Shown: positions 8,054-62,918 of the stretch, in pieces
Layout of the letters: every line of letters starts with the position of its first letter
Numbering within the stretch: the stretch's first letter is position 1
Source: Perkinsus olseni
Lineage: Eukaryota > Perkinsozoa > Perkinsida > Perkinsidae
Length of the DNA: 64,000 nt
Direction of reading: 5' to 3'
Assembly (NCBI GenBank): GCA_013115135.1
Contig: JABANP010000071.1
Location: 106,305 to 170,304 of the forward strand
Program-made: the position numbers and the translations under genes
Notes under the pieces: generated by a model
Databases searched by the model: none
What the model saw: only the letters and a program-made list of their open reading frames with translations
What the model was told of the DNA's origin: nothing

Positions 8054-9155
8054 TCATATGGAATTCTCATTAGCGTCGTCCAGTGATGAAATAACGGCAT
8101 AGCCGATAGCAGTGAATACGGCCACAGCTGCTAGGATAGTTGGCAGTAAATAGTGATGATCATTGACCAAGTCGAGACCACCGAAGAGATCGCCTCTGTC
8201 TTTTGAATTTGGATCGTACACATTGTTCTCGCTTCCCCCGAGCCGTTTGCAAAACTTGGAGAAATCCTGAATCAGGGGCTGCCGAACGGTGACACTACGC
8301 AACGCTGTTACCTTGCAGGCGAATACAGCATCTTTGTCAGGGAAGCCGCACTCAGTGCAGGTCTTTGCTCCTTCGGGAGGAGGTATTCGATGAAAGTACC
8401 CATGGGTGGGATAGAACCTGAGACCTCCCCATGCACACCCGTGGACTACACGAGGATCGCAGCTCTCACCGAGTGGTATCCAGGAACTCCGGAAAGAGCT
8501 CTCGGAAGTCCTTGTCCTGAAATAAGGTAATCCTGTCATTGCCCTTCAATACCACCAACTTACGAGTTTGTTTTTGACGAAGCTATTGATCGCACACTTC
8601 TCCCTGTACGCAGTCGATGCCGACATCCCGCCGGTCGTTCTGGGCTCAGTTTTGTCCAACATGAAACTCACAAGGCCTGATGAGTGGTGAAGTAAGAAAA
8701 CGGTGAGAAAAGAGTTGAACTCACCGATAAGGATAGTCTCCACTCGCCAGCTGGGATTCCAAGATTCTGGATGGAAGTCGGACATGGACAAACATAGCTT
8801 CGTATGCGTTTCGAATCTCCCTAAGGAGCGGTGGTTGATAATGACGATGATGGCAGTTGGCAGGCGTAATACCATTGGGAGTAATCATGTAGATCGCCGG
8901 CGGCTTCAGCGGATACATCGGTGGGAATACTAGCTTCCCGTGATACACGCCGCCGTAATAGGGAGTGTCTTCGGGAAGATCAAAAACAACAAAGTGCCAT
9001 TCAAGCATGCTCTTAGTGGAGGGCATGGCATCTATCTGTGCTGGGCAGGCCCTGATGGAGTAAAGGGTTGAGGGTGGTAGCTCGTCCGGGACCTACTTCT
9101 TCAAAGCCTGCAATTCCCGTGTCAGCCGCGCCACCGCCTGGCGATTCTCCGACAT
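8054..9155 (-). CDS. UBE2J2: ER-anchored ubiquitin-conjugating enzyme E2, UBE2J/UBC6 type
   Basis: E2 enzyme of ER-associated degradation that transfers ubiquitin to substrates at the cytosolic face of the ER. The ATG at 9155 starts MSENRQAVARLTRELQALKK, followed by a 45-nt intron. The next exon has EWHFVVFDLPEDTPYYGGVYHGKLVFPPMYPLKPP (UBC core, given as two adjoining blocks: EWHFVVFDLPEDTPYYGGV and YHGKLVFPPMYPLKPP) and MITPNG. Then come ETHTKLCLSMSDFHPE, where the Cys is the UBC6-type active-site residue, and NPSWRVETIL. The exon after that begins GLVSFMLDKTEP. The C-terminal exon ends in a hydrophobic tail-anchor (LLPTILAAVAVFTAIGYAVI) and DDANENSI. At least five short introns are needed. 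The one at about 8351-8469 carries a T-arm-like core. The exon between DTTR and the tail is less certain. The symbol follows the human UBE2J family; I cannot tell J1 from J2. Confidence 0.85.
8351..8469 (-). repeat. Intron with T-arm-like core (UBE2J)
   Basis: Sense strand contains GGTCTCAGGTTCTATCCCAC, a tRNA B-box-like block in gene orientation. The GT donor at 8469 follows DTTR. The AG acceptor at 8351 is the best but not the only candidate. Member of the intron family described in the findings. Confidence 0.5.
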
Positions 9156-9371
9156 TATCGAAAAACAATTCTTGCTTATGTAGAGGTGTATAACATGACA
9201 GTTAACAGGCGCGGCCACTGAGTGGCAGTCGCATCAGATTTCAGTAACCCCAAGGTCATTATAAATGACTGCTGTTCCCATCCCTCCTGTCATCAGACTT
9301 CCAACCAAGCCGCCTAGGTAGCTGGAAACGTTTGGTAAGGATAAACATTCTCATCAGCACACTCAACAACT

Positions 9372-12307
9372 CTAGGGAGCTTTCTCAGAAGTCGGCGAAG
9401 TCACAGCCGCTCGGTCCAGCTCAGTCTGACGCTCCGCCTCTCGACACTTGAGCGGGATGTAGTCCTTCATGTCCTCCTCTTCCACCAAGTCACCGACATC
9501 AAGCTGCAGTATATCACAACTGAGGACGATTGAGGGTGAAGGTAGCCAGCAGCAGAGGCCACCTACTGTTTCGATCCGAGGAGGTCGGCCATTGATGGTC
9601 TCGTCCGGCCGAAGTCACCATGCACAAACTCCTTTATGTACATCCCTGCGCTGCACGCCAGAGACACCTGACCACACGGAGTTGCTCACTGAGATGAGCC
9701 CCCTACGGCGATGCCGACCTTGAGGTAGTGGGGGTTTATAATCTCGCAAGTGATGCTGTGCATGATCTTCCTTCGCATGGCGTTGGCCCGACGATGCATC
9801 ACTCGGAGGGGAGTCCGCTGCTGGATCTCCACCTCCTTCATAGCGTTCACTCGCTCCACTACTTCTGCACTCACCGGGTCCTCACTCCAAACCATGCAGA
9901 CATAACTGAGAGAGCGTCAACCTCACAGTCGAGTGCTACTACTCCCACCAAGGCCTACACTTTCGTGTGCCGCTCACTAGACCAGCCAAGCCACTCCATC
10001 ACGTGCTTGTCGGCGGGGTGGATGAACATGACCTCAAAGGCGTCAGTCTTGGCTGCTAGAGACTCCCACTCCACCTTATGATGGGGTAGTAGTAGATTCC
10101 GGTGGGCATCGGGGATCTGTCCATCACAGCGTGTGCACCAGTGGGGGCCGAGAGCGAGGCCAGCTCACCTCGACAGCGAAGGGACGACCGTTGCCAAGCA
10201 TGCGGACGTCGACATCCTCGCGGCCGGCGCTACAGAAGCTGCATCGCGTCCAGTCCGCCCCGAGGGCCTCACAGATCGGCTCTGAGAAGCGAAGGAGAAC
10301 TCCACAGTGGTGACAGCCGATAGACCATTGACGCAGAACAACATGCGACCTACTGAGCGCTATCTCTGATGCTGAGGTCTCGCAGCGACTGCGAGGCTTG
10401 GCCCCATCATGGACCAGCCAGGGCGTCTGTGATATCTTCCGACTGAACTTCCTATACCTCCCGAAGAGGTATATGCTATCCCGGTTTATCACTGACTCCA
10501 AGGTCGGCCTGAACTCTGCTGTGTTGGGGTAGGCCCTCATGCACTTAGCCAGGTCATCAACACCTACGCACTGATGATGCCAACTCGAGTGGGGCTAACG
10601 GAGGCTCACCCAACAGAGTCTCGAGCCTGTCGGAGCTCTGGCCCTTCATTGCCTTGATAATGGTATTGGTAGATGGCAGCTCGGCCTCGGCATCAGAGGT
10701 CTCGGGAGAGGAGGCTGTGGGGGGCTGAGCAGTACAACTGGCTGATGAAGGGTCGGGCCAGCCCTTACCTCAGTAGAGGAATCCCGCCTGTCCTTGTCCC
10801 TCCGCCATCGACCCTTGCCCTTCCCTCCTTTCCGAGCGAACTTTCGGTCATCCTTCCACCCTGAGGAGGATAGGTCCGCCTCCTACCCGTCAGCAAAGGG
10901 GCCTACGTGACGGCGGTTTGATGCGCTGCTCACTGGCCAGCACCGAGCACTCAAGTTTGTCTGCCGCTGGCGAATTCACCTGACAGCGCAACGGGATGAT
11001 AGACCAGACCGCAGCCTGGACGAGTAATGCTACTTCCAGTGTGACCCTGAAGTAGGCCTCTGCCACAGGGTTCGATGCCGCCAGGACCTCCTCCGTCAGG
11101 CCAGGGGTCATGGCTCTCATTTTACGGTGGAGTTCTGGTAGCAGCACCCATCGGAGGACCTCCCGAACCTCCGGTACCTAAAACTACTACTGTCGTCGTC
11201 AACTACCACGATGACAGGCTTGACAGGACGGGTAACAGGCAAAGATATTTCACTTCACGTGAGAAGAGGTCACGAGAAAATGCCCCCGGCGACGACCGAC
11301 CTCTTCCACCGCTCCTCTTTCGTATAGTATCTTCTCGACGAAGCCTCGGACGACCAGAGCAGGCGGCAGGCGAGTAGAGAGTACAAGGTCGTAGGTGTCC
11401 TCAAACCTGTTTGAGCACTTCAAGATGACCCCCAACGCTAGATGCTGTACCCTGATGCATCGATAGCAGCAACGATGTCCTCCATGACGCGGTTCTCGTG
11501 ACCAGAGAGGCAGGGGTCCTCCAATAGACCAAAGCAACCACCACAGAGATGCTCGGGCTCAGGCCTGCACAGGCAGGGGAGAATGGGAAAAGACAGACAG
11601 CCCATTAGATAGAATGCCACTACGAGCGATTGAGAGCGCTCGCAGAGATGAGGTCACTATGCCACTGAATTAGTGAGGCGAGAGCGGTACAGCAAAGCCC
11701 TTCGGAAACAGAGCCAGCCGAGTGCTGCCCCTATGCTACGTGGCATAGCGGGTCAATTTGTGCATGCTACATTGTTCTCGTCACTGTGTACGTGACACAG
11801 CGCCTCTCAGTCTCATATGGATTCTCGAAGTCGAGAGTCCCGCTACCCGGTATCGTTAGGGATCGACAGAAAGGGCGAAAGTGACAACGGTCAAATAGCA
11901 GGAGGCCACTGAACCCTATTCGCTAGTTTGACAAGACGAGTAAATGACGAGCCCCAAGCAAGTGCCCTCGTTCGGCTGCTGTTTCATCGCCAGTTCTCTA
12001 CGGAGCCATCGGACGTTGCCTCGGCTATCCGAGGCGAGGGCTCTCAATCTATCCCAAGATGAGCCGAACAGCCCATAATCTATATCAGATACAACAGGCG
12101 ATATGCTATTGCCTGCATGAGTAACGCGGCGGCGGCGGCACAAGGCCAAGTCGAGCCAATCCCAACACACTACCTGTCCTCCTGTGGTGGTCCGACCCAG
12201 TCTTCTGCCTTGTACTTCTCAGGGTCCTTCTCTCCTTTAAACCGGAGCTCACATCGCCAGCAGAAGTAGTCCGCTAGCTCAGGAGCCGAGGCTTCAGACG
12301 CGGTCAT
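9372..12307 (-). CDS. PUS10: tRNA pseudouridine synthase Pus10
   Basis: Pus10 makes pseudouridine in the T-arm of tRNAs (positions 54/55 in archaeal and animal enzymes). The ATG at 12307 opens MTASEASAPELADYFCWRC with a first CxxC and ELRFKGEKDPEKY. A later exon (about 11600) has the second zinc pair CGGCFGLLEDPCLSG. Downstream, LFGRYRKFSRKISQTPWLV aligns with human Pus10 GRYNKYSRNLPQTPW. The catalytic segment GREDVDVRMLGNGRPFAVE (about 10180-10240) holds the conserved Asp of the REDVDVR motif. QRTPLRVMHRRANAMRRK and AGMYIKEFVHGDFGRTRPS follow, then the C-terminal exon CDILQLDVGDL. The stop is at 9372-9374. There are many small introns; for example the one after ADLLGSKQ starts GTAGGT. The middle exons (10.6-11.6 kb) are assigned only from order and frame. 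The length fits the roughly 500-residue family. Confidence 0.88.
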
Positions 12308-13126
12308 TACTACGGACAAACCCTGCCGCCCGCTGATCTTCACTCACGACTACAACATAACACTTCTCAATAACGGACGATAATAGCGTTGAGCGCTGCG
12401 AGGCTCGGATGACCCCAACACCGGAGTAACAAACACTGAATAGACGGTACGACTACGGCAGCAGTCAGACCAAGCAACGTGCTCTGTGAAAATAGCAGTG
12501 CTCCGAGAAGGCCAGGTCTCCTCGCCTGGAGAACTAACAACAACCGGAACACCACAACGCACGACAAAAATCCGACTGCTACCATTGTTCGCTCAACGAT
12601 CGCTGACAGCAATTTAATCAGTTCTGCTACTACTACTTCTGATACTCTTATCGTTCAGTTTCCTCCTGAGCCCCGCATCACTGTTGAGGAAGGGGAGGGA
12701 ACAGGCAGGAGGAGAAGGAGGGGATGAAGGGTCCTCGAGATTATGATGATGCTATTATTATTGAGTTACATGATGGCCACACAAGGCGACCGACTAATGT
12801 TAATGGTACAGACATATTACTAGTAGATTTCGAAACCAAGACGACAACAACAACAACGACTACTACTACAACATTCTGTCGGGGAAAAGCGTCAAATACA
12901 CCACCACCGCGGGCCAGTAAGAATAGGGCAACGACAGATACGAATAGAACAGCACAAAGTGTCACGGAACTATCCAGCTTCCTCCGCTTGGACCAAGGCA
13001 AGCATTGGTATGATCCCCAAAGACTTGGCCCTCGTAACAGACGACTACTGCCTTCAAATAGCGGCGGAAAGTAGGTTGAAAATACTTGCCTATCACTTGG
13101 AAGAGGAGCCCGGGAGAGAATCGTCA
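12308..13126. other. Intergenic, low-complexity trinucleotides
   Basis: Upstream flank of PUS10. Contains an ACA/ACT trinucleotide-rich run near 12840-12875. ORFs here are low complexity and I do not regard them as genes. Confidence 0.4.
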
Positions 13127-16149: not shown

Positions 16150-18177
<2,028 letters not shown>

Positions 18178-18328
18178 GATGTTCTGGTAGGATTAATCAA
18201 CTGACCACGTCAGTGCCCCCACACTTTGCTCGACGCGTCACCACTGCTAAGCTTTTCCTTGTGAACATATGCCCCTTGAAGGCATAGTCGTAGGGGAAGC
18301 TGATCGATTCGTGGCCGACTTAAGGGGA

Positions 18329-18372
18329 GTGGGAATAGTCCCAGGTTCGAGCCCGGCACACGTCATTTTTAG
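18329..18372 (+). repeat. Candidate 44-nt leader intron with T-arm-like core (V-ATPase a)
   Basis: GT at 18329 and AG (TTTTTAG) at 18371-18372 enclose GTCCCAGGTTCGAGCCCGG. It lies 156 bp upstream of the V-ATPase a ATG, so it would be an intron of the untranslated leader. No protein evidence fixes the ends. Confidence 0.35.
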
Positions 18373-22604: not shown

Positions 22605-23054
22605 CCGAGATGCGAAGGCGTCCCATTTTCATGCATAATTGATGACCAGGCAAATTTAAGAAGAATCTTCGTGCGCACCGTGATGATTAAAGACACTCTC
22701 TTTGCGATTGGCTATGATGATAGATTGATATTAATAATTACTCTCACCGGGGATCGAACCCGTGTACTGCTGATGATTTGGTTAATTGCTACTACAACTA
22801 CAACATTTACGTACATCATTCCTCTCGAAGGAGGGTGCCACGAGCCTGTGTTTGTGTTCAGTACCACTCCTTTGTCAATTTCCAAGATATATCACCAAGG
22901 CCCCTGTGGTGTTGTTGGAGGAAACTGATGTCCCTATTACGGAGAGCACGTAACGACTGGTGCCGACTCAAGTCAATGGTGTATACTTTGTGTACATCTT
23001 GATGAAGGTTACATGCAAGACTTAAGGCAATCTGAAATCCGCGACTCGCTCGTT
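22605..23054. other. Convergent intergenic region with an isolated T-arm-like block
   Basis: Lies between the 3' ends of the V-ATPase and kinase genes. The minus strand at about 22745-22775 reads ACGGGTTCGATCCCCGG, a good T-arm, but I could not fold a full tRNA around it. It may be a degenerate tRNA or an unspliced relative of the intron family. Confidence 0.4.
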
Positions 23055-28823: not shown

Positions 28824-30120
28824 TCAGGTTGACGATGATCCGGCGGGGGCGTCGTCTATCTCTTTTACGTCCTCCTTGGGCTTATCGAAGCATCTCATTT
28901 TTTCTATCAATTCCTGAGCCGATGCGAATGCTGTAGATGAGAAGTGGTCGAAGTGCCTACCTGCTGCATCTCCTTCGAGAATGCCGCTGCTTTCTTCTCC
29001 AGTCTGGCGCGTTGTGACTCGTCTAGGGTTTCGATGTCCGCGGCGCCGAGTTTCACTGCCGATGAATATCCTTCATCCTCTGGCAGCGTGGTCTTGAGGG
29101 CTTGTCTGGTAGCAGCACAGAAATCAAAAAGGATCGGTTCTCTTCGCCGTGGATTCGTGATCGAGCTCAGCCTGTGGTTGGCTAGCGGCAGAGATTGGGT
29201 ATTGTAGTGAAGGATGTTAGCCTTGACTTCCCGCGAAGTCCGAGAGAGCAAAGTTGCATAGGACTCACCGAAGTTTCGCGACGAGCTCTTCCATCATCGA
29301 GCTGAACTCTGAGGCCATCTGGTCTATCTTCTCTCGAATTTCATGCTCTTGTGCATCCACTAGGGCGAACTCGTCTTCCTGGAAGCGGAAGTCAACGAAT
29401 GTGGTGTTCATGTAAGTCACTAAAATCGTCTGAGTCACCTTATCCCGGAGGATTTCTTCCATCTCGTGAACGCAGAGCTCCCGATCCTCGCGAAGTTCTG
29501 CTAAATTTGTCTCCAGCGCATTGATCTCTTGAATAAGAACATCTTGCGTTGCCTTGTAGCTGCAAAAAAGAGACGTGACATCAAACAAGGGCGCGCCCGG
29601 ATTTGAACCGAGGACCTGCTGATCTGCAGTCAGCCGCTCTACCACTGAGCTACACACCCTCTGGTAATGTGTCGCTCCCTGCCAGGTGGAGACTGCTTAC
29701 CTCCGCGCGTGATCCCCGAGTATGCTCGTAGTTATCGTTCTATCCGCCTTGAGCACCTCTTCTATTCGATTGACCTGGTGAGCACATCCTTACATCTCAT
29801 GCATTTCTGGGTGTTCTCCTGATGGCGTGGTCACCTCCTCCTTGTAATCATTCAGACTTTTCAGATCGGCCTCAGCAGCTCGTGTTCGTTCCTCTAACAC
29901 CAACTCGGCACCATCCACTTGGTTTACAAGGTCTTCGTACAACTCCTCTGCTTTAAAAGACACCTAGCACAACATGCACGTGAATGGATCTTCGCCGTCA
30001 CTCCTTGCGTGAAGTTGAGCTGGTAGTGTCAGCGAGAATGTCGGATCGAAACGATAAGCCTCCCGCTACGCCTTCTCTCACCCCGATTGGCTCTTCCTTT
30101 TTCGCGGCCTTTTTTCCCAT
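28824..30120 (-). CDS. Coiled-coil protein, perhaps DRC12/CCDC153-like; hosts an intronic tRNA gene
   Basis: ATG at 30120 gives MGKKAAKKEEPIG. A coiled-coil exon follows (VSFKAEELYEDLVNQVDGAE, VLEERTRAAEADLKSLNDYK), then a short exon VNRIEEVLKADRTITTSILG. After the tRNA-bearing intron come YKATQDVLIQEINALETNLA, ELREDRELCVHEMEEILRDK, EIREKIDQMASEFSSMMEEL and VAKLR. The C-terminus has ETLDESQRARLEKKAAAFSK and a final exon ELIEKMRCFDKPKEDVKEID, with the stop at 28824. The YKxxQ...LE...L pattern and the SSMMEEL tail resemble dynein regulatory complex subunit 12, a ciliary protein. This is a weak family call; a generic coiled coil is the alternative. Confidence 0.5.
29560..29700 (-). other. 141-nt intron containing a complete tRNA-Cys gene
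   Basis: Donor GTAAGCAG at 29700 follows the GDHARR residues. The acceptor TTTTTTGCAG at 29560 precedes YKATQDV. The tRNA gene lies inside on the same strand, about 40 nt from the donor and 27 nt from the acceptor. Confidence 0.8.
29588..29659 (-). tRNA. tRNA-Cys (GCA)
   Basis: Full cloverleaf on the minus strand. Acceptor GGGTGTG pairs with CGCGCCC (two G-U pairs), then T8-A9 and D-stem GCTC/GAGC with AGTGGTA loop. Anticodon stem is GCTGA/TCAGC with loop CTGCAGA, giving anticodon GCA. Variable loop AGGTC and T-arm CTCGG-TTCAAAT-CCGGG follow. The discriminator is T, as usual for tRNA-Cys. No intron, no encoded CCA. A T6 run ends 4 nt before the host intron's 3' end and could serve as Pol III terminator while also being the polypyrimidine tract. 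Confidence 0.93.
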
Positions 30121-30825: not shown

Positions 30826-35432
<4,607 letters not shown>

Positions 35433-35858: not shown

Positions 35859-38800
35859 TTAGCGGTACCACACCTTCTGCATATCCTCCACCGAGGCCGA
35901 GGTCTCCAAGGCCCATTCGTTAGCCCACTGTGCGAGGTTATTGACGAGGTAGTTGTCAGACTCGTACAGGGATGGCAGTAGTTGCACCTGATTTGAGTTG
36001 TCGCCGCCCCGGGGATCGAACCTGCGCCTCCTCTACCTGCAGCAGGAACAGAGGCGCCACCAAGAACTCTAGGAAGCCGATCTGAGAGTGTGGTCTCGAG
36101 ACGGTATTGCGATCATTGAGCATCTGGACTGGGATGTTCTGAGCCTTCTCGAGGTCACCCTGAGAGACGAACAACATCCCTCCCGAGGACTATGCTCTAT
36201 GCGCCATCAACCATCGGAGACGGACCCTATTGCGGACATTGAACGAAAAACGAGAGCCTATTAGTGTCGAGTGACTCGTACGACTAGCACTCTCTCTATG
36301 CCGGTGTGAGACATAGAAAACATGCCAGTCGATGATAGAAAGTCGGCCACGTTGTCACCTGGGCGAAGAACTCATCGAGGACTCTGTTAGCCCAAGCCTT
36401 GCAGCTCTTGAACGGCTTAGTCGGATTCGATATATCTGCTGCGTGAAGGAACAGTTGAAGTAGAGTCATACGAACCTGAGCATCGAGCCCGTCAACGACC
36501 TAAGACGCTACGCTGCTGTATCCTCGTCACTACGTCGTTGGTGGAAAACAATGCTACACACTCGGCCGACCATTCCTCCTCGTCCGCATCGTAACCCTCG
36601 TCCACGATCTAACAAGAGAGATCAAGTACATAACAATTCCTCGCATAAGGCTTCTCAAGATACTCAACCGGAGGGGCTTCTCAAGATACTCAACCGCAAC
36701 CGGAGGGGCTTCTTAAGATACTCAACCGGAGGGGCTTCTCAAGATACTCAACCGGAGGGGCTTCTCAAGATACTCAACCGGAGGGGCTTCTCAAGATACT
36801 CAACCGGAGGGGTTTCTCAAGATACTCAACCGGAGGGGTTTCTTAAGATACTCAATGAGAGCGATTTCTCAAGATACTCGAAGGAAAGGACAGAGGCGCT
36901 ACGTTCGAGCTGCTCGACTGTTCTGACTCGGGCTTTGACAGGGAGCACTTCCATTGGTCGTCGTCGTTACCTCTCTGTTGAGTTGATAGAGCATTTGCAA
37001 GGCCTTTATCATCTCGAAATGGTGGGCGTTATCAGTGTGAAGGATGCACTCGATCATTATCCGCCGCACGTCTCGGTACCTTCAGGCCAACACCACGAGA
37101 TAGCGAGAAGGTTTCCCGACATCGGAAGATAGGAAATCCCTGCGGCTACGAACCCTAACGATCCAACCTCGCTATAACAATGGCAGCAAGACAACCATCC
37201 CTCCTTCAGAGACTGACCAGCTCCTTACTGCTGCTTGGATAGCTCTTGAAGGACATTAGCCTCGGCTTCCCCGCACAGCTCGAAAAACCGCGCACAGTGC
37301 ATGTTCTCTAGCGGCGACTTGTCGTTATACCTGACACCAGCCCACCTCCACCCTCGATCTCGCTGCCCACCCATCATCACCGAAGGGCCAGCTCGTGGGC
37401 GGTCTCGATCAGGTAGGGATTGTTGACCCCTGGATGACCGATATCATGCACCACTGCGGCTAGCAGTACCGCTAGACAGTCCAACGGCTGAAGGAATGCC
37501 ATGCTCTTGGCGAGGGCCATGTACCTAAGAGGGACGACGATAAAGGCAGAGACTGCACCCAAGCAGTCCCTTCTAAATTCAATGCTGAAAACCCTCGAGG
37601 AAAAGAACAGATTCACGCGCACTTAGAGTATGACCACGAGTACTGCCCTCACAGTCGGCCATTGATCGACAACAACAGTGGACGAACAGAATATACGGTC
37701 GAAATCTTCGACCGAGTATTCGTGTACGAGCCAATCCACAAAGATTCCACCGTCACTGACCTGTATACGGTGTGGGTGACGTCAACCGCATGATACCAGT
37801 TATGGTAAGGGTTGTCCAAGTAAGCCAGCCGAGCCCTCGCTAAGAAGACCTAAAAAAACTCGCCATCGTGCGAGGGAGGAGGGGTAGTGTCAAAAGCACC
37901 ACCTCGAAAACATCCAACGTGATTAAGCCGTTAATGAAATAGGAGAGCTCCGATCCGAAAAAGATATACCTGCAGGAGGTATCGAATGCCATCGTCACGC
38001 GCCACGAAATTAACCCGACTTCAGTAGTGCATCGTTCTGTTCATCACTGTGTTCCAAGACATCATAGTGCCAACTGTCGGCCAGGGCGGAGTCCAGCAGT
38101 CCAGCTTTCTCCAGATCAGCCACGAAGGTTTGTAGATTCTGTTGTCCCTATAAGTGATACCAATACAAGCCCTTCCACTAGAGAGGGGAGATTCCGTTTT
38201 TACTCCGTCTTATCTTTGCGGCAAGTCCCTCCTTATCCAAGCTCGCCTTACGCGCCTGACAACAGCGCCGCCGATGATGAGGAACGCGGGAGCGCTCTTC
38301 CGGGACACCTGATTCTGGGTGATCATATCCAGAACGGCAAGATCGTCTGATCCGAGGTTCTTCATGGCCTCCTCATCCACGGGTTGCTTCGCGACGAACA
38401 TTTCCGACAGGACTGCCAGCTTTTCTACCACAGCTTCGAGGACCTAGGCCGACTCGACAGGTCCCTGGTTCGATCCCGGCGACAGCCATTTTCCCACCGA
38501 TGCCTCGCTCATGAACGCTCCTGAGTCTTCTAGATCCTCGTCGTTGTAGTCGATATTCACAGCTTTCTCCTCTTCTTGTCGCTGGAACGACAAAGATATG
38601 CGCGCACAGCAAAGAATATCTTTCCTTCATGCCCACCTCTTCCACGGCAACCTTGCTAATCTGACTGACCGTTTTGAAGATATTCTTGGCCATGTCTCTG
38701 ACCCGACAGAAAAGCCCCTCCAGCGGCGACAGCACCTATCAAGGTGCGACAATTTCGTGGCGCAGCGCAGATATAAACACAGTCACTCACTATTTGCGAT

Positions 38801-40317
38801 ACGCTGTTACTGAGCAGGGTTGCCGAGAGTAACATAACGATAATGACCGTTACCTGGGAACGTGAGGGGTCCCAGGATCGAATCCCAGGGGCGGTATGTT
38901 CTCACCACTAAAGCTATGTTCATGCCGGCCTCTGTCTTACTGACCGAAGTAAAGTCGAACATGGCCTGCACCTTCGTACCAACGTAACCGTAACTCGTGA
39001 CCCAAAGCTCGTTGGATATCCTATTCGGTGGATCAGCGAAGGTCTCCGCATACACTAGGCCAGCAGGTGAGTGCTCTATGACCAGCGCCACTGGCTTGTA
39101 TTCTCGGAAGTCGTAGAAATCGAGGAACTCAGCAACAGTTTGGTTGAAGGACCTGCCCATCGGCAGCAACTTTATGCAGCCTAGACGATGGAGACGGCCC
39201 ACCCTCCTCCAATGTAGCTATCGCCAAACATGTGAATATGGCTGGCGAACTGCTGGGTCCAAGCTTGCATCGAATGGTCTTCATCCGGATACCTTCACGA
39301 CAACAGTTCTCATTCGACTGTCTACTTTGCTATTCGGATGGTGACCAAACTGATGGCGATATCCGAGCCTTACTTCATCACGTCAAAGAGCGGCAAGACC
39401 ATCACCAGGCCAATCGTCAGCATCGAAACTCTAGTAGAGAGTGCGTTGATCAGCCGCGATCCGAGGACCTAGGAGGAAGGGGCGCCGCTACCAGGCCTGC
39501 CTGTGAGCGCGTTGTATCTCGAGTACTTTGGCTGTGCCAGCACTCTCGTCTTGGATACTGCTGACTCCAGGCAGCCACTTGAGCAACCTCATAATCCGAG
39601 TTATCCGTCCAGCTCGTGCGCCGAGTTTGGTAGTACGGGCGGCACGGAGAAGGACGACGTTGGAGCCGACACCAGAATTGACTGACAGCAAGGAAGATCC
39701 GCCCGCCCCCGGAAGAATGACGCATTCTCACATTTTAGGCTCTGGTCGTTGTCACCGAGGGCCCAAGAAATATCGAGGAATAATGAGAATGCTCCAATGA
39801 AGTCCATAATGAAAAAGAACCCTCCCAAGTATCTGCCAGGGTCGTTCTGCGGGCGAAGCGTTGGCATGTTGATCCCTACTTGCGAGTGCTCGAGTGAGAG
39901 GACGACCATTTCCACAACGAAAAGGACGAATATAACGATGAGGATGTGATCGAGGACTTGGTAGCTGTTCTCGATGTCGAACAAAGTCTGAGGAGAGGCG
40001 TGGGCTTTGGGAGGCCATATCCAGTGACGGCTCACCCAACAGTCCGGCAGAAACAGTGCAATGAGTAGAGCAATGTTCATGATGGTTTGGAAGGTAAAAG
40101 AGTGTGCTGCTCGAGATGCCGTTCGCAACACCCACGGTCTCCGTTTGAAGAACGGAACCCTGATCAGCCATGAATCGTCCAAGACACACTGACCGAACCT
40201 GCCCAGTTACGCTAGAAGGGAGCGTCGGCCCTCAAAGTGGGTAGTCACAGCTCGCACAGATTTTCTCTTTGAATATGCCATTGTCGAGGTTTTTGATATT
40301 CCGTTCACTGGTGATAC
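35859..40317 (-). CDS. Voltage-sensor-like membrane domain fused to cyclic-nucleotide phosphodiesterase
   Basis: Class I phosphodiesterase with an ion-channel-like N-terminus. Upstream exons hold [17 protein letters not shown], then [19 protein letters not shown] (S1-like), [20 protein letters not shown] (S2-like), [20 protein letters not shown] (S3-like) and an Arg-rich S4-like helix [20 protein letters not shown] with MRLLKWLPG. Next are [20 protein letters not shown], a loop ([15 protein letters not shown]), another membrane span ([19 protein letters not shown]) and a coiled linker [20 protein letters not shown]. The PDE domain shows [37 protein letters not shown] (metal HD), [31 protein letters not shown] (metal Asp) and [20 protein letters not shown], ending DMQKVWYR* at 35859. 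cAMP versus cGMP preference cannot be told. Introns 35988-36036, 38444-38497 and 38854-38905 carry T-arm-like cores. A 26-bp minisatellite lies in another intron. The true start may reach about 40800. Confidence 0.82.
35988..36036 (-). repeat. 49-nt intron with T-arm-like core (PDE)
   Basis: GT at 36036 after [11 protein letters not shown] at 35988 before LLPSLYESD. The sense core is GCAGGTTCGATCCCCGG, in tRNA-sense orientation relative to the gene. Boundaries are fixed by PDE homology on both sides. Confidence 0.8.
36646..36881. repeat. Tandem repeat, 26-bp unit, about 9 copies
   Basis: Unit AACCGGAGGGGC followed by TTCTCAAGATACTC, repeated head to tail with few changes (C/T at two positions, one 6-bp AACCGC insertion, degenerate last copies). 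26 is not divisible by 3, so the plus-strand ORF across it cycles through three peptide versions every 78 bp. It sits in an intron of the PDE gene between [13 protein letters not shown] and [10 protein letters not shown]. Confidence 0.9.
38444..38497 (-). repeat. 54-nt intron with antisense T-arm-like core (PDE)
   Basis: GT at 38497, AG at 38444. The sense core is GCCGGGATCGAACCAGGGAC. On the plus strand it reads like a tRNA 3' end: GGTCCCTGGTTCGATCCCGG and then GCGACAGCCA, ending in CCA. Removal joins the exon with FMSEASVG to [16 protein letters not shown]. Confidence 0.72.
38854..38905 (-). repeat. 52-nt intron with T-arm-like core (PDE)
   Basis: GT at 38905 after [11 protein letters not shown] at 38854 before [11 protein letters not shown]. 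The sense core is CCTGGGATTCGATCCTGGGA, a near-perfect palindrome. Confidence 0.75.
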
Positions 40318-41088
40318 CTGAGAGTCTCCTATTGAACGTGAAAGTAGTCCCCTCGAAGCTTCGCTGCAGCTGGAGCCACGGGGCTGCTAGTCGGGAGGAA
40401 CGTCACCTTCGTGCCCATCAAATGATCTCTCGGTTAATTGCTTGCGAATCCAACGGGAGATAGAACTCGTCGTTGTTTCCACTTCAGCGTGTAGGAGTCA
40501 CGAAGAAGGTGAAGCCAGCAGCAGCTTGAGCGGGTTGTCGGAAGGCAACACACTCGGAGAGATCGAACAACTGCAAGTGGTTGTGAAGTCTATGCGAGTC
40601 CGCTACTGTTATCATTTAAGCCTGCCGAGCCCGTAATACGTGTCAGTGTCAAAGCGGCACTAAAATTCGGCACTGTAAGGACGCGAAACAGAGGATGAAG
40701 CGCAGCGTCATTGGGATCACAACGGAAGTCGTGCTTGCTGGATACGGAAAGCATCGAACGCTCAACGCATGTTTTTCGTGCCCGGAAATCTAGGAGCTCG
40801 AGAAGTGAGAAATAAGCCACCTGCCGGGATTGAACCGACGACCTTCTGCTTACGAAGCAGACGCTCTACCACTAAGCTAAGGTGGCGATGCTACACGTGG
40901 GGAGGAGCCTCTTGCAGCTGGTGCCTCATTGGCAAGGGTACTAATTTACACTGTTCAGAATGATCCCCTTAGGCCAGAAACTAGTCTCTCGGTTTTTGCC
41001 CTGTGTGCGCAAGCATTGTACCGCTAGGGTGACGTCACTCGCTTCCGCTATCGGTCATCCTCTGCAGTTTGGTTTCTCTCCTGCCTTC
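40318..41088. other. 5' region shared by the PDE and BMS1 genes
   Basis: Divergent genes. Holds the tRNA-Thr gene and a possible upstream PDE exon on the minus strand (SSKHDFRCDPNDAALHPLFR, 40590-40790). If that exon is real, the tRNA would again be intronic or leader-embedded. Confidence 0.4.
40815..40886 (-). tRNA. tRNA-Thr (CGT)
   Basis: Cloverleaf on the minus strand. Acceptor GCCACCT/AGGTGGC pairs perfectly. T8-A9 is followed by a D-arm GCTT...GAGC, weak at one pair. Anticodon stem is TCTGC/GCAGA with loop TTCGTAA, giving anticodon CGT (codon ACG). Variable loop AGGTC and T-arm GTCGG-TTCAATC-CCGGC follow. Discriminator T, no encoded CCA, no intron. No T-run is seen in the first 20 nt downstream. 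Confidence 0.92.
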
Positions 41089-44000: not shown

Positions 44001-46453
44001 GGAATCGGAGGCCTACATCAGACAGTTGAGATGCAGAAGATTCTTTGTTGCCAAGAATATCACCAAAGAGCTTGAAGGAGGGGGAGATCAAGGTACTCCG
44101 ATTGAAGTAGAAGTAGTGCTGGGTTATGGTTGTGGTAGGGTGGCTCGACCAGCGCTGAGGGCGGCATGGATCTGGAGGCTGAGCGACAAGCCAACGCTGA
44201 GGCTAAGGAGAAGGCGGCTATGGAGGAGTCTAAGGGGGCTGATGACGAGGAGGAGGATGAGGTAGTGGCGGGAGTTGATGTCGATGCGGATAGACTGGTG
44301 AACAGGACACTGCCCGCCTGAAGGGCGTGGTGGCTACGAAATCGGAGTTGGACGAGGTCCGGGACTTCAGTGCTGATGATGGAACTCTCGCCATCGGCAC
44401 TTACGCGAAGGTAAGCCCACTCGGTCGTGCATGGAGTCCACTACGTTCGCCGTCCTCCCCCAGCTGGTGTTCGAGAACGTGCCAGCGGAGTCCGTGGAGG
44501 CTCTGAAGGAGAGAAAGTGGCCGCTGATCTTGGGCTCCTTGCTGCCCAGTGAGATGAAGATGGGCTTCATCCAGATGAGGGTAGGCAGCAGCAGCAACAG
44601 CTTCACAATGGTTGCAGTGGGTTCGTTCTTCAGGTCAAGCGACATCGGTGGCATCCGAAGATTCTCAAGACGCGGGACGTGCTGCTGTTCTCGGTTGGGT
44701 GGAGGAGATTCCAAGGCCTGCCAGTCTATGCTTTGGAGGACAGGAATCATAGCCGTGTTAGGATGTTGAAGTAAGCTAATGGTGGTGCCTGACGGAGCAC
44801 AAAGATATGCCCGGCTGGACCCCTCTGGCAGGGCAGTAATCAGATTATTGACAGATTGAATGGAGAGGTTATTATAACCTCCCCATTCGGTAGTCTAACA
44901 CTCATACAAGAACATTTTCCTCACATTCTGAGAGGAATCCCGAATGAGCGAAGCGAAGTTCATCCTGCATTAGAAGTCAGACTGCTGCTCCGCTGGTGTA
45001 CTCGGAATCCTCGTCATTCGAGAGCTCTCGAATAGAAATGAAACGCTGAATGAGAAAGCGACAGAGACAGTGTCTGGTCTGATGCCCGATTTCCGCATGC
45101 TCTATGATGCTCGCTCCATTCGTGATGCCTTGGAAGAGTACTGAACGAGTATGGAGGTATACCTCTGCTGTAGATACACCCCGGAGCATATGCATTGCCT
45201 CGCTACAGTGTACGGTCCCAGTATAGCCCCTAATACTGGTGTCTTGGCTATCCGTAACTGGAAGGCCGTGCCCAGCTACAGGGTCGCTCTTACAGGACAG
45301 GTGAGGCTAGCCTCCGTAGTCATCCGTCTGATAGTGCCGGTCGGGCGTGTAGGTGATGGAATCGGCCGAAAAGTTCGACATCGTTAAGAAACTTAAGCTG
45401 GTAGGAGAGCCGACGAAGGTCTTCAAGAACACCGCCTTCATCAAGGGTAAGTCTTATTGAGGGCCTGCGGCTGTCCCTCTAGCTCTCCGTCAGGAATGTT
45501 CAACTCCGATTTGGAGGTCTCCAAGTGCATCGGTGCGAAGATACAGACGGTGTCGGGTATTCGTGGTGAAATCAAGAAGGCCCATAAGGCCAATGGCGAC
45601 TTCCGTGCGGGGTTCGAGGATAAGATCAAGATGTCGGATTTGGTGATGCTGAAGGCTTGGGTCAACGTCCCTCTGCCGAAGTTCTACAACCCCAATGTTG
45701 GACGTACCGGAGTGGCGACGGATGAGGACCATTGCGGAGCTACGGAGGGCTACCAACACGCCGATACCGAACAAGCTGGACTCTAGCTATGGGCAGGGAA
45801 GACAGGAGAGAGTCGATAGGAAGTAAGCGAAAGGTCTCCGGATCGATCCTCGGCAAGGGCACTTTTCAGATCCACGCCGTTGAACATACCGGACTCCCTT
45901 AAGAAGCAGCTGCCATTCAAGAGCAAGGCCAAGGTAGGTTGATGGGTCGGAGTACCCCTGGCGATATTCAGTCGTCTATTCTCAGGTACAAGAGGCTAAG
46001 GAGAAGACCAAGCTCGACAAGAAGGCTGCTGTTGTTCGCAGTAAAGAGGACAAGGACGTAGGGCAACTCGAGTGTTATCGCGATTATTAGGGCAAGGGGC
46101 AAGTTTGGATCTCTATTATGGTGTATCCCTTTCAGGTGGCGTCCCTGCTCCAGAGGCTGTACACTATTCGGCAGCAGCGCACGAAGCAGCGCAGGGAGGT
46201 GAGGGATAGAGTCACTGTGGATGAATTGTGAAGTCCGTCTGTAGGCGAATGAGAGAAGGTGGGCGAAGAAGAAGGCGGCCCAGCATGAGGTTGATGTCAT
46301 TCGAGAGGACAACGCCAAGGAGAACCGCAAGAAGAGGTCAGCCAGAGGCACGAATTTCGTGGCGCAGTGACGGTCCCGAGTGTTAGGTATGTTAAGGAAG
46401 GCATGCGACAAGAGCAGCAGAAGAAGCGCATGCGGCTGGACCGAGCTGATTAG
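41089..46453 (+). CDS. BMS1: Ribosome biogenesis GTPase BMS1
   Basis: Nucleolar GTPase of the SSU processome needed for 40S maturation. ATG at 41089 gives [19 protein letters not shown] (basic start, as in BMS1). [20 protein letters not shown] precedes the P-loop [20 protein letters not shown] at about 41660-41720. Then come [79 protein letters not shown] and VTNLARY...[11 protein letters not shown] long acidic middle is split over exons 42.8-44.3 kb. The conserved C-terminal domain has [60 protein letters not shown] and [10 protein letters not shown], then [21 protein letters not shown] basic tail ends [15 protein letters not shown]. Single extra bases break the frame at the P-loop (A-run 41693-41695) and at 45698-45699. 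The exact joins of the acidic exons are unresolved. Confidence 0.9.
45823..45869 (+). repeat. 47-nt intron with T-arm-like core (BMS1)
   Basis: GT at 45823, AG at 45868-45869. The core GGTCTCCGGATCGATCCTCG is in gene sense. Removal joins [12 protein letters not shown] to [19 protein letters not shown], a conserved BMS1 stretch. Confidence 0.75.
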
Positions 46454-51161: not shown

Positions 51162-51178
51162 AGTTGGGGTGACCAGCA

Positions 51179-55573: not shown

Positions 55574-55632
55574 ATCACATTCATACCGTTGATAGGGTTA
55601 TCCGATAACCCTATCAACGGTATGAATGTGAT
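55574..55632. repeat. 59-nt perfect palindrome (29-bp arms, 1-nt centre)
   Basis: The left arm begins ATCACATTCATACC and ends GGGTTATC. After one C at 55603 the right arm is its exact reverse complement. The centre reads GGTTATC-C-GATAACC. As RNA it would be a very stable hairpin; as DNA it is a cruciform candidate or paired binding site. Confidence 0.95.
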
Positions 55633-55870
55633 AACCATTGATAACGATAACCCTTATCGCAGTTCGTTAATCGCTCATGTTGATAACGACGGGAACAACT
55701 GCGCACTTATCGCTGGCTCTCACCTCGGCTTGTATTGATCCGGCATGTCGCTTATCATAGTAGCAGCAAGGAAACCCGCCAAAGCACCTCCTGAAATCAC
55801 ACCAACACTGCTAGCTGGAGGCAAGGTAAGCGATAAGAGCAATCTAATCAGTGATTAGAGCGATAACAAC
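55574..55870. promoter_or_regulatory. Cluster of GATAA motifs and small palindromes
   Basis: About eleven GATAA/TTATC cores lie within 300 bp. They include the 59-nt palindrome, CGATAA-CCC-TTATCG at 55645-55659 and TCTAATCA-G-TGATTAGA at 55843-55859. The region separates the unknown minus-strand gene from sequence to its right. A regulatory role is inference only. Confidence 0.45.
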
Positions 55871-55983
55871 GACCGTCGAAGAGGTGTTGGTAGAAGTTGT
55901 TTGACTCTGACGACGCGACGTCAGGCTGACGTGCGTAAGAGAATGAAACGCAGTACTCTCGTTCATGAAAAGACTCATTTCAA

Positions 55984-57100: not shown

Positions 57101-57117
57101 CCGTACCCAGCTCTACC

Positions 57118-58526: not shown

Positions 58527-59690
58527 TCCTCAAGATATCACAGAGAAATCCCATAGAGTCCTCCTGCCTTCGGATTGAGCAACGCTCCCTTAGCGATCAC
58601 CCCTTTGACCAACACGCTTGCTGTAGTTGCTGCCAGTGCAAGACCCGTGACGTCAACTTCCGTAGAGACAGCTGGCACAGGGGAGGGATTCGTTACCTGT
58701 AAGAGTACGGCAAGAGTAGAGGCGCGCGCCGGCTCCTCCAAAAGTACGGCAGCTTCGGTGTGACGACCTTATGACCCAATTCAGCAACGACAAGTTGACG
58801 CCGTGAACCCGCGCGTCCAACAGGTAAAGCCCAGTCCCACTTCCTCCGGCTCAGGTTCCGCCTCCGCTTCCACCTGGATAACGTCCGATGACCTCGTCGA
58901 ACTCGGTCCACAATCTATAGAATTCGCATGCAGAGAGAACGTGGAGACTTTCACTGGTTGTTCACCAAGAAAGTCGAGGCAGCTGTCCCTTCCGGGTCCC
59001 TTGCTTGCTTCTGGGCCGCCGGTGTATAGACTAACGGTATTGACTGCCGACCTTCTGGCGGCCCTGAGCGGTTTCTGAGGTCAAACGAGAAATGGCTAGC
59101 CAGTTCACTGGTGAGCTTCCATGAGAGGCATGCACGGACGGCGAGACACCGGGTCGGGATCCCTGATGCGTCCTGAGCATCTCAAACTCACTGTTGGAAC
59201 GTCGAGTCTACCAGTCGCGACGGCCTCCGGCAGCTGTAGGAATTTAGACAGCATCCATATGATGAGTACAGCGACTACTGCAGACAACCAGAAGTTCTCA
59301 TCTGGAAGCCGGGCTGTCGAGGCAACCGAGTCTCCCTCGACCACTGGCCACCACCAGCAGTTCTCCTATAGAGCACGCTACGAGCGGGCACAACTTGCAA
59401 GAATGCTCCTCTCAGGAAATCACAGGCCACTCTACTCAGCCACAGTGGTAACAGCTCCCAATAGCGAGGCCCTCCGAGTATAGGGTCGTCAGACTGTCGG
59501 GGTAAGACTATAATTCTCTCCTCGATGAATTGACCAACTGCGTCGTAACAGCACGATGAACTTCAGAAACTAATGGGGGCGCGTTACGTATGCGCGAAAA
59601 ACTCTAAGATAGAGCTACACTGCTCCTGTCAGGGCCGCCTCAGTGGCCACTCATAACCTGAGAGAGGAGAGGTGAACCATGACACGGCCA

Positions 59691-60215
59691 CTAACTTCCT
59701 ACATAGTAAGCCACGAAGGCTACACCAGCAATCAAAATGACAGGTAGAACTCCAACGCCAACGACTCCGCCGCTTGATTCGAGCTCCGAGTTCATAGGAA
59801 TCCCCTTAGACTGAAAGGTTGAGCGATCAAACGGTCACGCTGAAGGTCCCCGGATCAAATCCCGGCCGCATTACGTCTTCGTGTCCTTCCAACACCCCAA
59901 TCCTATGAGCCTTCGCCTGCCTTCTCGCTTCATCAGAATGCCCGATCTCCTCGAAATCCTCCGTGACGTTCCCACCGCTAATTGTGGTGATGACCTATAC
60001 ACCAAGCATGACCTCGACAGCCTAGAAAGATACCCCACCTCCGGTCCGCCAGGATGGCTCTCAACGAAGTCCGTGACGTCATACACCGAACCGTGGACTA
60101 TGATCCAGCAGTCATCGCCCTTATTGTGCGCTTCAACCTCCTCCTTAGTGTACACTTTCACCGTTTCATCCTCCTGCTTCTTGTCTACGTGATTAGGTGT
60201 TGTGGAGGCCGGCAT
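59691..60215 (-). CDS. Tail-anchored cytochrome b5
   Basis: Electron carrier on the ER face, donor to desaturases and sterol oxidases. Three exons: 60039-60215, 59875-59994, 59691-59810, coding for 138 residues. The ATG at 60215 gives [20 protein letters not shown], then [38 protein letters not shown] (first haem His in HPGG), [20 protein letters not shown] (second haem His in GHS) and [20 protein letters not shown]. The C-terminal anchor is [20 protein letters not shown]. Length and order match the family. Intron 1 (59995-60038) is 44 nt. Intron 2 (59811-59874) carries an antisense T-arm core. Neighbour on the same strand: a sterol-oxidase family enzyme, its likely redox partner. Confidence 0.93.
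59811..59874 (-). repeat. 64-nt intron with antisense T-arm-like core (cytochrome b5)
   Basis: GT at 59874 after LEGHED, AG at 59811 before SKGIPMNSE. The sense core is GGCCGGGATTTGATCCGGGG. On the plus strand it reads GCTGAAGGTCCCCGGATCAA then ATCCCGG, matching the end of a tRNA anticodon stem, variable loop and T-arm. Confidence 0.85.
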
Positions 60216-60459
60216 CGTTTGGATGGGAGGCCGCAAAAAACTTCGAACGTCATATCAGCAAACCCACATTACAGGCATAATCGACGGTCACAAGTCCACT
60301 ACAGCCACTCACCACTCGCTGACGATCACTCACAGGCTGTGGGAACGCGAACAGTCCGTGCTTTTTCCCACACTTCGGTACCGACTAGACACTCCTGCCC
60401 TTCGTGTGAAAGACGCAACAATACACATCTTGAGCTCGTAAAGTTCGTGCACAACAACG

Positions 60460-60511
60460 CTAGTAGACTGGCAATAGTAACACCCAGGTTCGAACCTTGG
60501 GGGATCCATAC
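60460..60511 (-). repeat. Candidate 52-nt leader intron with T-arm-like palindrome (cytochrome b5)
   Basis: GTATGG donor at 60511 and CTACTAG acceptor at 60460 enclose CCAAGGTTCGAACCTGGG. It lies about 250 bp upstream of the cytochrome b5 ATG and would be an untranslated-leader intron. No protein evidence. Confidence 0.4.
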
Positions 60512-60663
60512 TCCATTAGCGTTAGGCGTTGGAATGATTCAGACGAAGACTGCCATGCGAGCACCGATACCACAAGATGAAGGAATTTAAAAAAGTAGAC
60601 ATTGGACGTCGAGTGACAAATCCTGCCTGCTGTACGCAATGGGACTCTGATGCATGGGAATCG

Positions 60664-62918
60664 CTAGTCACAATAGCGATTTAACGCGGTCACAGACTCT
60701 GGTCCCTCCTTTTCCCGTGAAGCCCTCAGTTGAGCCAGATGGGCTCTCCACAGACCATCAGTACCTGCCGAGTAGTTCAACAGTGGGCGCACCAGACTAC
60801 AGATCGAAAGGCATGTTTCGGCCCAGGTTCAATCCCCGGTGCTACCATGCATTTTATCTACGAATCCTATATTCCCGTAGTTGACATGGAACTTTTCATG
60901 GTGAAAGTCGTGGAAATCGGGCTGATGATCAAACCACACAATCCACGGCCACCTAAAACAAACTTTTCACTTTTCCACCGCTTCACGGAGCTACAACTTC
61001 GACTATGTGCGCCTGCCTGCGCGAAGGTCGAGATCCCACCCGAAAGGCCGCAGCACAGACCGAGCTACCGAGAGACTACCGTATGCCACTGTGATGACCC
61101 TCTGTCCCCAACACCGCATAAATCGACCACAGCAGGAAGGTAGCTGAGGAGGAAACGTCGTTGTTATTGTCACGGAGGGAACTTGGTAGACCGATGATGC
61201 TGCATTCCACAGGCGGAAAACCGAGAAAACGCTTCACCGAAACGGTCACTCGAGAGCGGCCAACGAGCGGCAAGCACTGTTCAGAGCACGAAGACTCCTC
61301 CATCGCGCCGATGACGGGCGACCGAAATATTCTACAAATCGATCGTCGTATTCCTATACTAGTCATCAGTTGCAACAATTGACCAGCCCTCATGTATTAC
61401 AACAATGCGCGCCAAGACAGAAAGCTCCAGCTCCGAGAGGAACGAAATCCGCTATGACCAACTCCAACGGGTGGCAATACCTAAACATATCCAAGTCATT
61501 GTGCCGGCCAAGGGCAAAACATTCATGAACAACCGTTCGTGGCACAGGAATACTTGGCCGATTAATCTTTACGATCTTACAGTGAGGCGAATACATTGGG
61601 TGCTGGATACTCGTGATGCATCTTGTGAATCTTCTTGTATAGATAGGGACTAGCGTGGAATAACCAATGACCGTAAAAGAAGAGGAACTCGTTGACTAAT
61701 ATAAAGTAACTGAGCAACGACAAGGAAACCAATCTCAGCGATCCAGCACTCTTCATTCTCATCACGAGCACACAAAAGTGACACAGCGAATTATCATCAA
61801 CTGGTACTATGAGTTCTCACGACAAGCTGTAAAACATGGGCGCTTCTCTCAAGCCCTCGGCCGGAATAGACGAAGCGTCACCATGCCATACAATGAGGCC
61901 AGGTGGCTACTTATTACATCATCTGCACTGCTATCTCCAGCTTCGACGGGAGCCTCTCGGGATCCATGTCCACGTACAACCCAATGGTGTCTCGGTACTG
62001 CTGCAGGTAGAAGCTTCCCATACCAATAAGGGGCACTAGTACGATCGTGCTCAATGCGCATACTCGTAGCAACCTAAGAGCAATCTGAATCTAGCCTTCA
62101 CTCGATTGCATAGGAGCGTACTTGTGGAACTTGGGATCCTTGGGTAACAGTCTCCTACGGGGCTGAATGATTCTATCCTCCACTGGGAACAAGTTAAAGT
62201 ACTCAATTATATACGCGACCGTCGACGTCAGCCAGTATGTGCAGCATATCGTGTACGGAACAACAAATGCCTGCGACAAGATCGTAGCATGACGACCGGA
62301 TCGTGTTATGAAAGGACCAGGTCCTCGTGCACGGCAATCGTTTATGATACCGGAAAGAACAGAGTCGTCCGATACCCGCCCATTACCATGAAGCTCCACT
62401 CGTCAACATAACTGAGCATCGCCTTCACTGCTGTGCCGTAAACCTGTAGGAAAACTACGCCGGTTCGACCACCAGAAAGTCCCCGCCTACATGCATCGGA
62501 ATGGACGCAAGTGTGGCAGCTACTGTCACAACTAATGGACCAGGCAAGGGAGCCTCAGCCAGTACCAAAAATAGGAGGACCACACCCGCGGCGTCCGCCA
62601 GAGCATTTCCTGTCGTCCTGAAGAAGACACTCGACTGGCAGTCATTGCGGCGACTAGATCTTACCCCTGACCATTTAGATCGATTCCGGCAGCCACTGCG
62701 CATCGCCTCAGGATTGTTGGACCAAAAGCTAGTACCATAAAATACCCAATGCAAGGAAGAATCACGCCCATGGCCTTCGAAGCATGAGAAGGTTCCTTCA
62801 CGACGGAACCTCTCTTTTTGGGAGATTCTGTCATCACAGTACTGCTATCCTTTCCCAGCGCCCATAATACACGATGGTGAACCGTGCTCAGCTCACTGGT
62901 GAAAACGGCCATGTTCAT
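60664..62918 (-). CDS. Fatty acid hydroxylase superfamily, sterol C-4 methyl oxidase/desaturase-like
   Basis: Membrane di-iron oxidase. The ATG at 62918 gives MNMAVFTSELSTVHHRVLWA. Exons with membrane spans follow (AMGVILPCIGYFMVLAFGPT, AGVVLLFLVLAEAPLPGPLV, YTICCTYWLTSTVAYIIEYF). The His-box exon has EFLFFYGHWLFHASPYLYKK and IHKMHHEYPAPNVFASL (HxxxH and HxxHH boxes). Next are HPLELVIADFVPLGAGAF and TEGHHSGIR. After an intron come PWIVWFDHQPDFHDFHHEKF (third His box), HVNYGNIGFVDKMHG and TDGLWRAHLAQLRASREKEG, with the stop at 60664. All three His clusters are present. The family includes ERG25/SC4MOL, ERG3 and plant SMO; the GHW..H, HKMHHEY and FHDFHHEKF set fits C-4 methyl oxidase best. Introns 60765-60845 and 60953-61079 carry T-arm cores. 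A cytochrome b5 gene lies directly downstream. Confidence 0.85.
60765..60845 (-). repeat. 81-nt intron whose donor overlaps an antisense tRNA-like 3' end (sterol oxidase)
   Basis: Donor at 60845 follows VDKMHG; acceptor CTCGGCAG at 60765 precedes TDGLWRAH. The first bases GTAGCACCGGGGATTGAACC are, on the plus strand, GGTTCAATCCCCGGTGCTAC followed by CA, i.e. T-arm, acceptor-like stretch and CCA. Confidence 0.85.
60953..61079 (-). repeat. 127-nt intron with weak antisense T-arm-like core (sterol oxidase)
   Basis: GT at 61079 after EGHHSGIR, AG at 60953 (GTTTTAG) before the PWIVWF exon. The sense core GGTGGGATCTCGACCTTCGC is a diverged copy. Confidence 0.6.

Follow-up and report, generated by a model that had tools for sequence, protein, structure and literature searches.

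The sequences described here are short and repeated, and about half of the copies examined lie in predicted introns. They were traced from one 64,000-nucleotide (nt) stretch of the Perkinsus olseni genome (contig JABANP010000071.1, positions 106,305 to 170,304 of the forward strand, corresponding to C679:106305-170304 in our searches; hereafter the window) to the whole assembly. On balance, these features are best taken as copies of a dispersed, introner-like element of ~35-50 nt that is like the 3' half of a transfer RNA (tRNA) gene. Up to ~5,000 copies may be present genome-wide, in either orientation and enriched in introns. An initial annotation of the window had proposed a dispersed family of introns with a common core like a tRNA T arm, in both orientations; such a family was indeed recovered in predicted introns, with sense and antisense copies about equally frequent.

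Abundance of the element

Genome-wide searches were carried out on an assembly of 61,483,535 bases in 968 contigs, with up to two mismatches allowed. The looser motif AGGTCNNNGGTTCRANYCC gave 5,333 matches (363 for the reversed pattern) and the stricter motif AGGTCCCNGGTTCGATCC gave 1,954 (13 for the pattern read backwards). Real tRNA genes sit inside both counts, and ~5,000 is therefore an upper figure for the looser motif. Tandem arrays of tRNA genes were noted at C778, C823, C142, C153 and C179, and the arrayed copies of a tRNA-like T-arm word at C14 are perhaps another.

The working sample (276,995 bases) consisted of the window and 27 loci picked for a match to the strict motif (L007 was omitted, for overlap). 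Because the loci were selected on motif matches, element density in the sample does not equal that of the genome. The looser motif matched the sample 94 times, versus once in a Markov control and twice in the reversed sequence. Full acceptor pairing identified five of these matches as true tRNA genes, and their removal left the 89 copies, window copies among them, that were used to build a profile of 44 positions (tRNA positions 35-78). Positions were counted from the T loop, following the usual tRNA numbering.

At a threshold of at least 12 bits, the profile matched the whole sample 118 times and the reversed sequence 0 times; subtraction of six tRNA genes left 112 matches. In the window there were 12 matches (reversed window, none), two of which fell on real tRNA genes, in their 3' halves. 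The word GGTTCGATCC, with up to two mismatches, occurred 84 times in the window, versus 58.5 +/- 8.0 in 100 shuffles, none of which reached 84; taken alone, this over-representation is modest. When the window and ten loci were scanned with Rfam, only the two window tRNAs exceeded the gathering score.

Structure of the element

Conservation was nearly limited to tRNA positions ~37-78, and the information profile of the 94 matches was almost flat elsewhere. The blocks follow each other in the order of a tRNA gene: anticodon-stem 3' strand, variable loop (AGGTC), T loop/B box, 3' acceptor strand to C72-A73, then T5. The search itself fixed some positions; among the others, C40, R42, R43, C49, C50, C63, G64, C72, A73 and T74-78 were enriched, while positions 51 and 66-71 were variable. 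When the search was fixed at positions 44-53 only, positions 54-62 were still conserved at 65-93%, and when it was fixed at 52-62 only, positions 44-48 were still at 75-90%. By this numbering the block has the layout of a tRNA-gene 3' half with a T-run behind it; it is not a working tRNA half.

At the 5' side, GT was found at positions 35-36 in 18 of the 89 copies, no other listed position having it in more than 12, and GTAA at positions 35-38 in 14. For comparison, the 3' half of the intact tRNA-Thr(CGT) gene of the window starts with GTAAGC at the anticodon, and TTATTTCTC comes after it.

Residence in predicted introns

Introns were predicted with a gene finder trained on the sample sequence alone, which settled on AG/GTRRG donors and TCAG/G acceptors and called 508 introns. 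A first finder over-called introns and was discarded, and a second missed the CK2 alpha gene; with further training and a lower intron cost, both CK2 alpha element introns were recovered (and later confirmed by alignment), with some other CK2 alpha introns misplaced. Finder settings were picked with the element counts in view; intronic matches stayed at 2.5-2.8 times the expected number across intron costs from 8 to 6.5 (29 versus 10.2, to 50 versus 19.5).

Fifty of the 94 motif matches lay in predicted introns and three in exons, where 19.5 and 24.5, respectively, were expected by length. The intronic matches comprised 26 sense and 24 antisense copies (25 and 23 without two real tRNA genes). 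The 112 non-tRNA profile matches were distributed over predicted introns (57), exons (4) and sequence outside predicted genes (51), at a density of 1.02 per kb of predicted intron versus 0.37 outside predicted genes. The core was commoner in predicted introns than in all non-coding sequence (p 7.5e-8), and, as also stated at the outset, it is not in every intron: 58 of the 508 predicted introns carried a profile match, or 55 without real tRNA genes. The finder also misses introns: kinesin, PP5 and WD40 sequence, respectively, flanks the introns that hold the matches at L001, L002-2148 and L023 (the WD40 bracketing is weak, under the Pfam cut-off).

Compact predicted introns of 44-60 nt contained little beyond the element. 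Examples are the sense intron GT[AGGTCCCCGGTTCGATCCCGGCATGTTGCA]TTTGTGTGCATTTTTTCTCAG of CK2 alpha and the antisense predicted intron GTATGCTTGAAAAG[TGCACGCTGCGGGGATCGAACCCGGGACCT]CAG of L006; L017:4918-4970 and a 54-nt intron of L002 are further compact cases. Similarity between compact introns spans both ends, whereas longer ones hold unrelated extra sequence, and many element introns exceed 100 nt in this way.

Eleven element introns were bracketed by conserved protein, eight in the sense and three in the antisense orientation (TPP, cyclase, USP). They lie in CK2 alpha (two introns; alignment without gaps to a CK2 alpha chain of solved structure, E about 6e-148), a PP5-like gene (junction spanned gapless, E 9e-8), the P loop of a kinesin (PF00225, 3.7e-14), USP (PF00443, 1.4e-8), an AGC-type kinase (PF00069, 1.7e-5, under the Pfam cut-off), HATPase_c (histidine kinase), Response_reg, a guanylate cyclase and a TPP enzyme (two introns). 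The junctions were verified inside the matched stretches, several joins having been set by hand ahead of the search; a predicted 39-nt choline-kinase intron (L006) is not among the eleven. At L010:434-5711, a single predicted gene combines a histidine-kinase HATPase, a response regulator and a class III cyclase, and holds several element introns.

The kinesin element intron splits a P-loop codon, whereas at 12 other kinesin-like places of the genome the reading frame runs on across the site. A paralogue interrupted at this very site could have escaped the comparison, since its short pieces may fall below threshold. Creation of introns by copies of the element is supported by the compact, element-only introns and, with this caveat, by the kinesin P-loop intron.

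Copying and shared descent

A 27-mer, chosen because it recurred in the sample, was found with up to two mismatches at 26 genome places (reversed control, 0; 0.54 expected in 5,000 copies). Within one mismatch there were 11 places, or nine once duplicates were joined, versus 0.04 expected in 5,000 copies with independent columns. Comparison in detail of 23 of the 26 places identified four duplicate groups with long matches. Among the other loci, similarity mostly began at positions 37-52 and stopped at 76-82, some pairs extending up to 95. The similarity of loci that belong to no duplicate group does not come from gene duplication, as it is confined to the element (a few also have 17-21 nt of another, unrelated motif family in common). 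The sense copy of L012 and the antisense copy of L025 have 50 nt in common at 92%. L012 and L049 proved to be one duplicated gene.

Loci L052 and L053 are alike only downstream of element position 31, from which point they are 97% identical; upstream they are unlike, and a hairpin stands in L053 just ahead of the breakpoint.

These comparisons demonstrate copying for the subfamilies, and in its behaviour the family resembles introners. Most sampled copies are far apart, so that they are ancient or stem from a varied source.

Strand bias

On the element strand, positions 66-71 held 65 G and 20 C in sense introns versus 34 G and 60 C in antisense introns (Fisher p 5e-8, in a test that pools positions within copies). 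The mRNA strand is G-rich in both orientations, and the called direction of transcription is therefore supported. C49 and C50 were retained in 22/23 and 23/23 antisense copies versus 13/25 and 16/25 sense copies, which suggests that strand-biased change or selection acted after insertion.

Contrary evidence and alternative explanations

Several results weigh against an introner-like element with a tRNA-like core. The T-stem pairs 49-65, 50-64 and 51-63 occurred no oftener than independent columns predict, and across the 89 copies neither the acceptor strand nor the anticodon stem had an upstream pairing partner above shuffled controls. A-box remnants were seen in only about 4 of the 89 copies (controls 0-2, other offsets up to 6), one of them in CK2 alpha. 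An RNA T-arm under structural constraint, a full cloverleaf and the A box as a general feature were accordingly rejected, by the lack of covariation, the unpaired acceptor and anticodon stems and the count of A boxes, respectively. The initial annotation had argued that a palindromic core lets the sequence work both ways round; with T-stem pairs at chance level and no excess of flanking repeats, that argument found no support.

The structural nulls bear on whether the copies are ordinary tRNA genes in decay, or tRNA pseudogenes, with a merely accidental place in introns, which we regard as very unlikely. Full-length but degenerate tRNA-like sequences, their A and B boxes spaced as in a tRNA, do exist: besides intact tRNA genes, two-box patterns detected them at 11 of 26 places, and a second two-box search yielded about a dozen, by eye, among 100 listed of 212. 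The A box kept in a few copies, including that in CK2 alpha, fits the same idea. Nearly all copies, on the other hand, are without the 5' half, acceptor pairing and anticodon stem, and the CC at positions 49-50 is common to tRNA-Met and absent from the other tRNA genes examined (some isoacceptors). The degenerate full-length sequences at C419:18147 and C604:18106 have both boxes and are identical in their matched letters.

Minority bases were shared among 88 copies without excess when the shuffles respected copy quality and orientation (the L001 (+) copy, an antisense shadow of another copy, was left out of this test only). Lineage structure is therefore weak outside a few subfamilies. Linkage measured by column shuffling was strong at first and weaker once stratified; total matches were still in excess (72 versus 42 pairs at 18 of 28; 1/500 shuffles). 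A genome search with a 41-mer of L012 returned only itself and its gene duplicate. The absence of excess sharing would be expected if the core were a functional DNA or RNA motif, such as a B box of the TFIIIC type or an aid to splicing, that is kept or re-evolved in many old introns. Its occurrence in both orientations fits too, as does the pattern of conservation: with only 44-53 fixed, positions 55, 56, 58 and 61 exceed 90%, and positions 51 and 63-71 are variable. Such constraint is nevertheless quite improbable as the explanation, in view of the long subfamily matches between unrelated loci, the extension of conservation to C72-A73-T5 and the oppositely oriented pair that is 92% alike over 50 nt.

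No gain or loss was observed between gene duplicates: in five groups (12 loci), all retain the element. Almost half of the non-tRNA profile matches (51/112) lie outside predicted genes, the kinesin comparison has the limit given above, and in an early local coding-score scan the elements scored no better than random places (medians 10.7 versus 10.3). Stable duplicates, matches outside genes and the many element introns longer than 100 nt with additional sequence would all suit a passenger, that is, a tRNA-like repeat that entered pre-existing introns, with exonic insertions purged by selection, and that marks introns without making them. We consider this unlikely: the introns of 44-60 nt are almost all element, so that an older intron would have had to shrink around it, and the kinesin P-loop intron was not seen at the 12 other matched loci, with split paralogues possibly missed.

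Flanking direct and inverted repeats showed no excess in any register in 61 copies, and a fixed-register test for target-site duplications (TSDs), which the initial annotation had recommended looking for, also gave a null result. The element thus bears no visible mark of classical DNA transposition or fresh retroposition. Excised introns that re-entered other transcripts and were then copied back to DNA would leave no TSDs, and the compact copies do end precisely at predicted intron borders. Reverse splicing of this kind is disfavoured because of the mixed orientation, with 25 sense and 23 antisense copies and a close pair, L012/L025, that is oppositely oriented; we hold it to be extremely unlikely.

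Copies in the window

The profile matches in the window are listed in Table 1.

Table 1. Element copies and comparison tRNA genes in the window.
Feature	Coordinates	Strand	Details
Marginal profile match, new relative to the initial annotation	473..516	+	13.0 bits
Element copy, sense	8392..8435	-	32.9 bits; adjoins UBE2J-like exon of - strand gene; not a gene-finder intron
Element copy, new relative to the initial annotation	18327..18370	+	32.3 bits
Element copy, new relative to the initial annotation	22734..22777	-	26.2 bits; exact B box
Intact tRNA-Cys gene (comparison, not element)	29587..29660	-	ARAGORN; Rfam 68 bits
Weak element copy	35996..36039	-	13.4 bits; exact B box
Predicted 54-nt intron, - strand gene	38444..38497	-	Antisense element 38450-38493 (+), 40.0 bits
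Element copy, antisense	38858..38901	+	30.4 bits; predicted intron 38736-38905 of - strand gene
Intact tRNA-Thr(CGT) gene (comparison, not element)	40815..40886	-	ARAGORN; Rfam 69.4 bits
Predicted 47-nt intron, BMS1-like gene	45823..45869	+	Nearly all sense element (45823-45866), 44.4 bits
Element copy, antisense	59835..59878	+	30.6 bits; edge of predicted intron 59658-59874, - strand gene
Weak element copy	60470..60513	+	13.8 bits

The initial annotation had named 11 positions. Those at 8351, 38444, 38854, 45823 and 59811 correspond to profile matches, as do 35988 and 60460 (both weak), while 16282, 34095, 60765 and 60953 do not; among the latter, 34095 has an exact B box and 60765 a B box with one mismatch, the rest of the profile being unmatched. 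Where the gene finder called introns, it agreed with the assigned orientations, antisense for 38444 and 59811 and sense for 45823, and it called 38854, to which none had been assigned, antisense. For the latter copy, a shorter GT-AG intron ending in CCCAG is also possible.

The exon upstream of the 8392..8435 copy (DKDFRELFPEF) resembles UBE2J2 by eye, and the - strand gene with the predicted intron 59658-59874 likewise looks cytochrome-b5-like. The BMS1-like exon upstream of 45823 matches PF04950 (E 1e-34, residues 4-103; junction at 120). A tandem repeat with a 26-bp unit (8.7 copies) occupies positions 36649-36879.

Other short families

Repeated 14-mers in the sample led to five further motifs: M1 AATTTCGTGGCGCG, M2 GTATCTTAGGTYGA, M3 AATCTTCGCTGTGCG, M4 ATCGCTTCGCTCCGC and M5 TTGAGGAAATGCAAG, with 51, 49, 14, 20 and 16 copies, respectively, in 277 kb (reversed control, 0). 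Some of these copies constitute predicted introns of 46-76 nt, and 104 of the 508 predicted introns bear one of the six families (the element and M1-M5). By eye, M1 is like a tRNA 5' half with an A box.

The spliced leader of dinoflagellates and perkinsids was found at 183 genome places with up to two mismatches (control, 0), many exact or near-exact, which marks the source as a dinozoan and probably a perkinsid; the PerkITS85 primer site of Perkinsus was absent. Some are arrayed (C268, C41, C871) and others single and mutated; the latter perhaps derive from retroposed trans-spliced mRNAs.

Relation to known systems and proposed origin

As in introners described by Gozashti et al. 2022 (PMC9860276) and for Amoebophrya (PMC7789003), a short sequence is common to many introns of unrelated genes, the sharing is not explained by gene duplication and the copies are gene-enriched. 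Some introner families there are also without TSDs and terminal inverted repeats (TIRs); one or both occur in 59.2% of 130 families and are not a required feature (PMC9860276). The element differs from these introners in its tRNA 3'-half-like core, its introns of 44-60 nt and its widely diverged copies. The main text of PMC9860276 contains neither tRNA nor SINE (short interspersed element) as a whole word, nor the string Perkins. A literature search on introners and on Perkinsus SINEs, introns and splice sites, with preprints and supplements outside its scope, returned no title on the element family; an earlier description may nonetheless exist.

With tRNA-derived SINEs the element shares the B box, the discriminator A, the T-run and a dispersed distribution in many copies, and its missing 5' part recalls truncated retroposons. 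Unlike them, it is nearly always without an A box, has no body and no tail other than the T-run, shows no detected TSDs, and in its compact copies coincides with predicted introns. It also shares the GGTTCGANNCC B box and the AGGTC variable loop with tRNA genes and B-box-only TFIIIC sites; unlike them, it is without a cloverleaf and sits in introns both ways round.

A tRNA origin of the element is likely. The order of variable loop, T arm, C72, A73 and T-run agrees with the tRNA derivation first proposed, while the 5' half is absent nearly everywhere; because of this absence, descent from a tRNA gene is something that we infer. The element may have originated in tRNA genes or in RNA polymerase III (Pol III) transcripts: it has an anticodon-loop edge, sometimes GTAA, at its 5' side, and its T-run is like a Pol III terminator. 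DNA like a tRNA 3' half would have been inserted by an RNA-templated route or by repair capture, leaving no lasting TSDs, and such insertions would have created introns. In sense copies, the T-run would form the polypyrimidine tract ahead of the 3' AG, with the donor GT at or before the 5' edge; in antisense copies, the A-run would be placed near the donor. Tentatively, and with a leaning towards doubt, we propose that introners born of tRNA 3' halves may have made thousands of introns, beside at least five other short families including M1; the GTAA of the anticodon loop could then act as donor and the T-run of the Pol III terminator as polypyrimidine tract.

The origin of new introns is a long-standing question, and the element hints at a source of which little is known. 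Of the introner families assessed in PMC9860276, most show one or more marks of DNA transposition. A tRNA-like family without such marks would tie Pol III genes to the birth of introns, and would show a route from a T-run terminator to a 3' splice signal.

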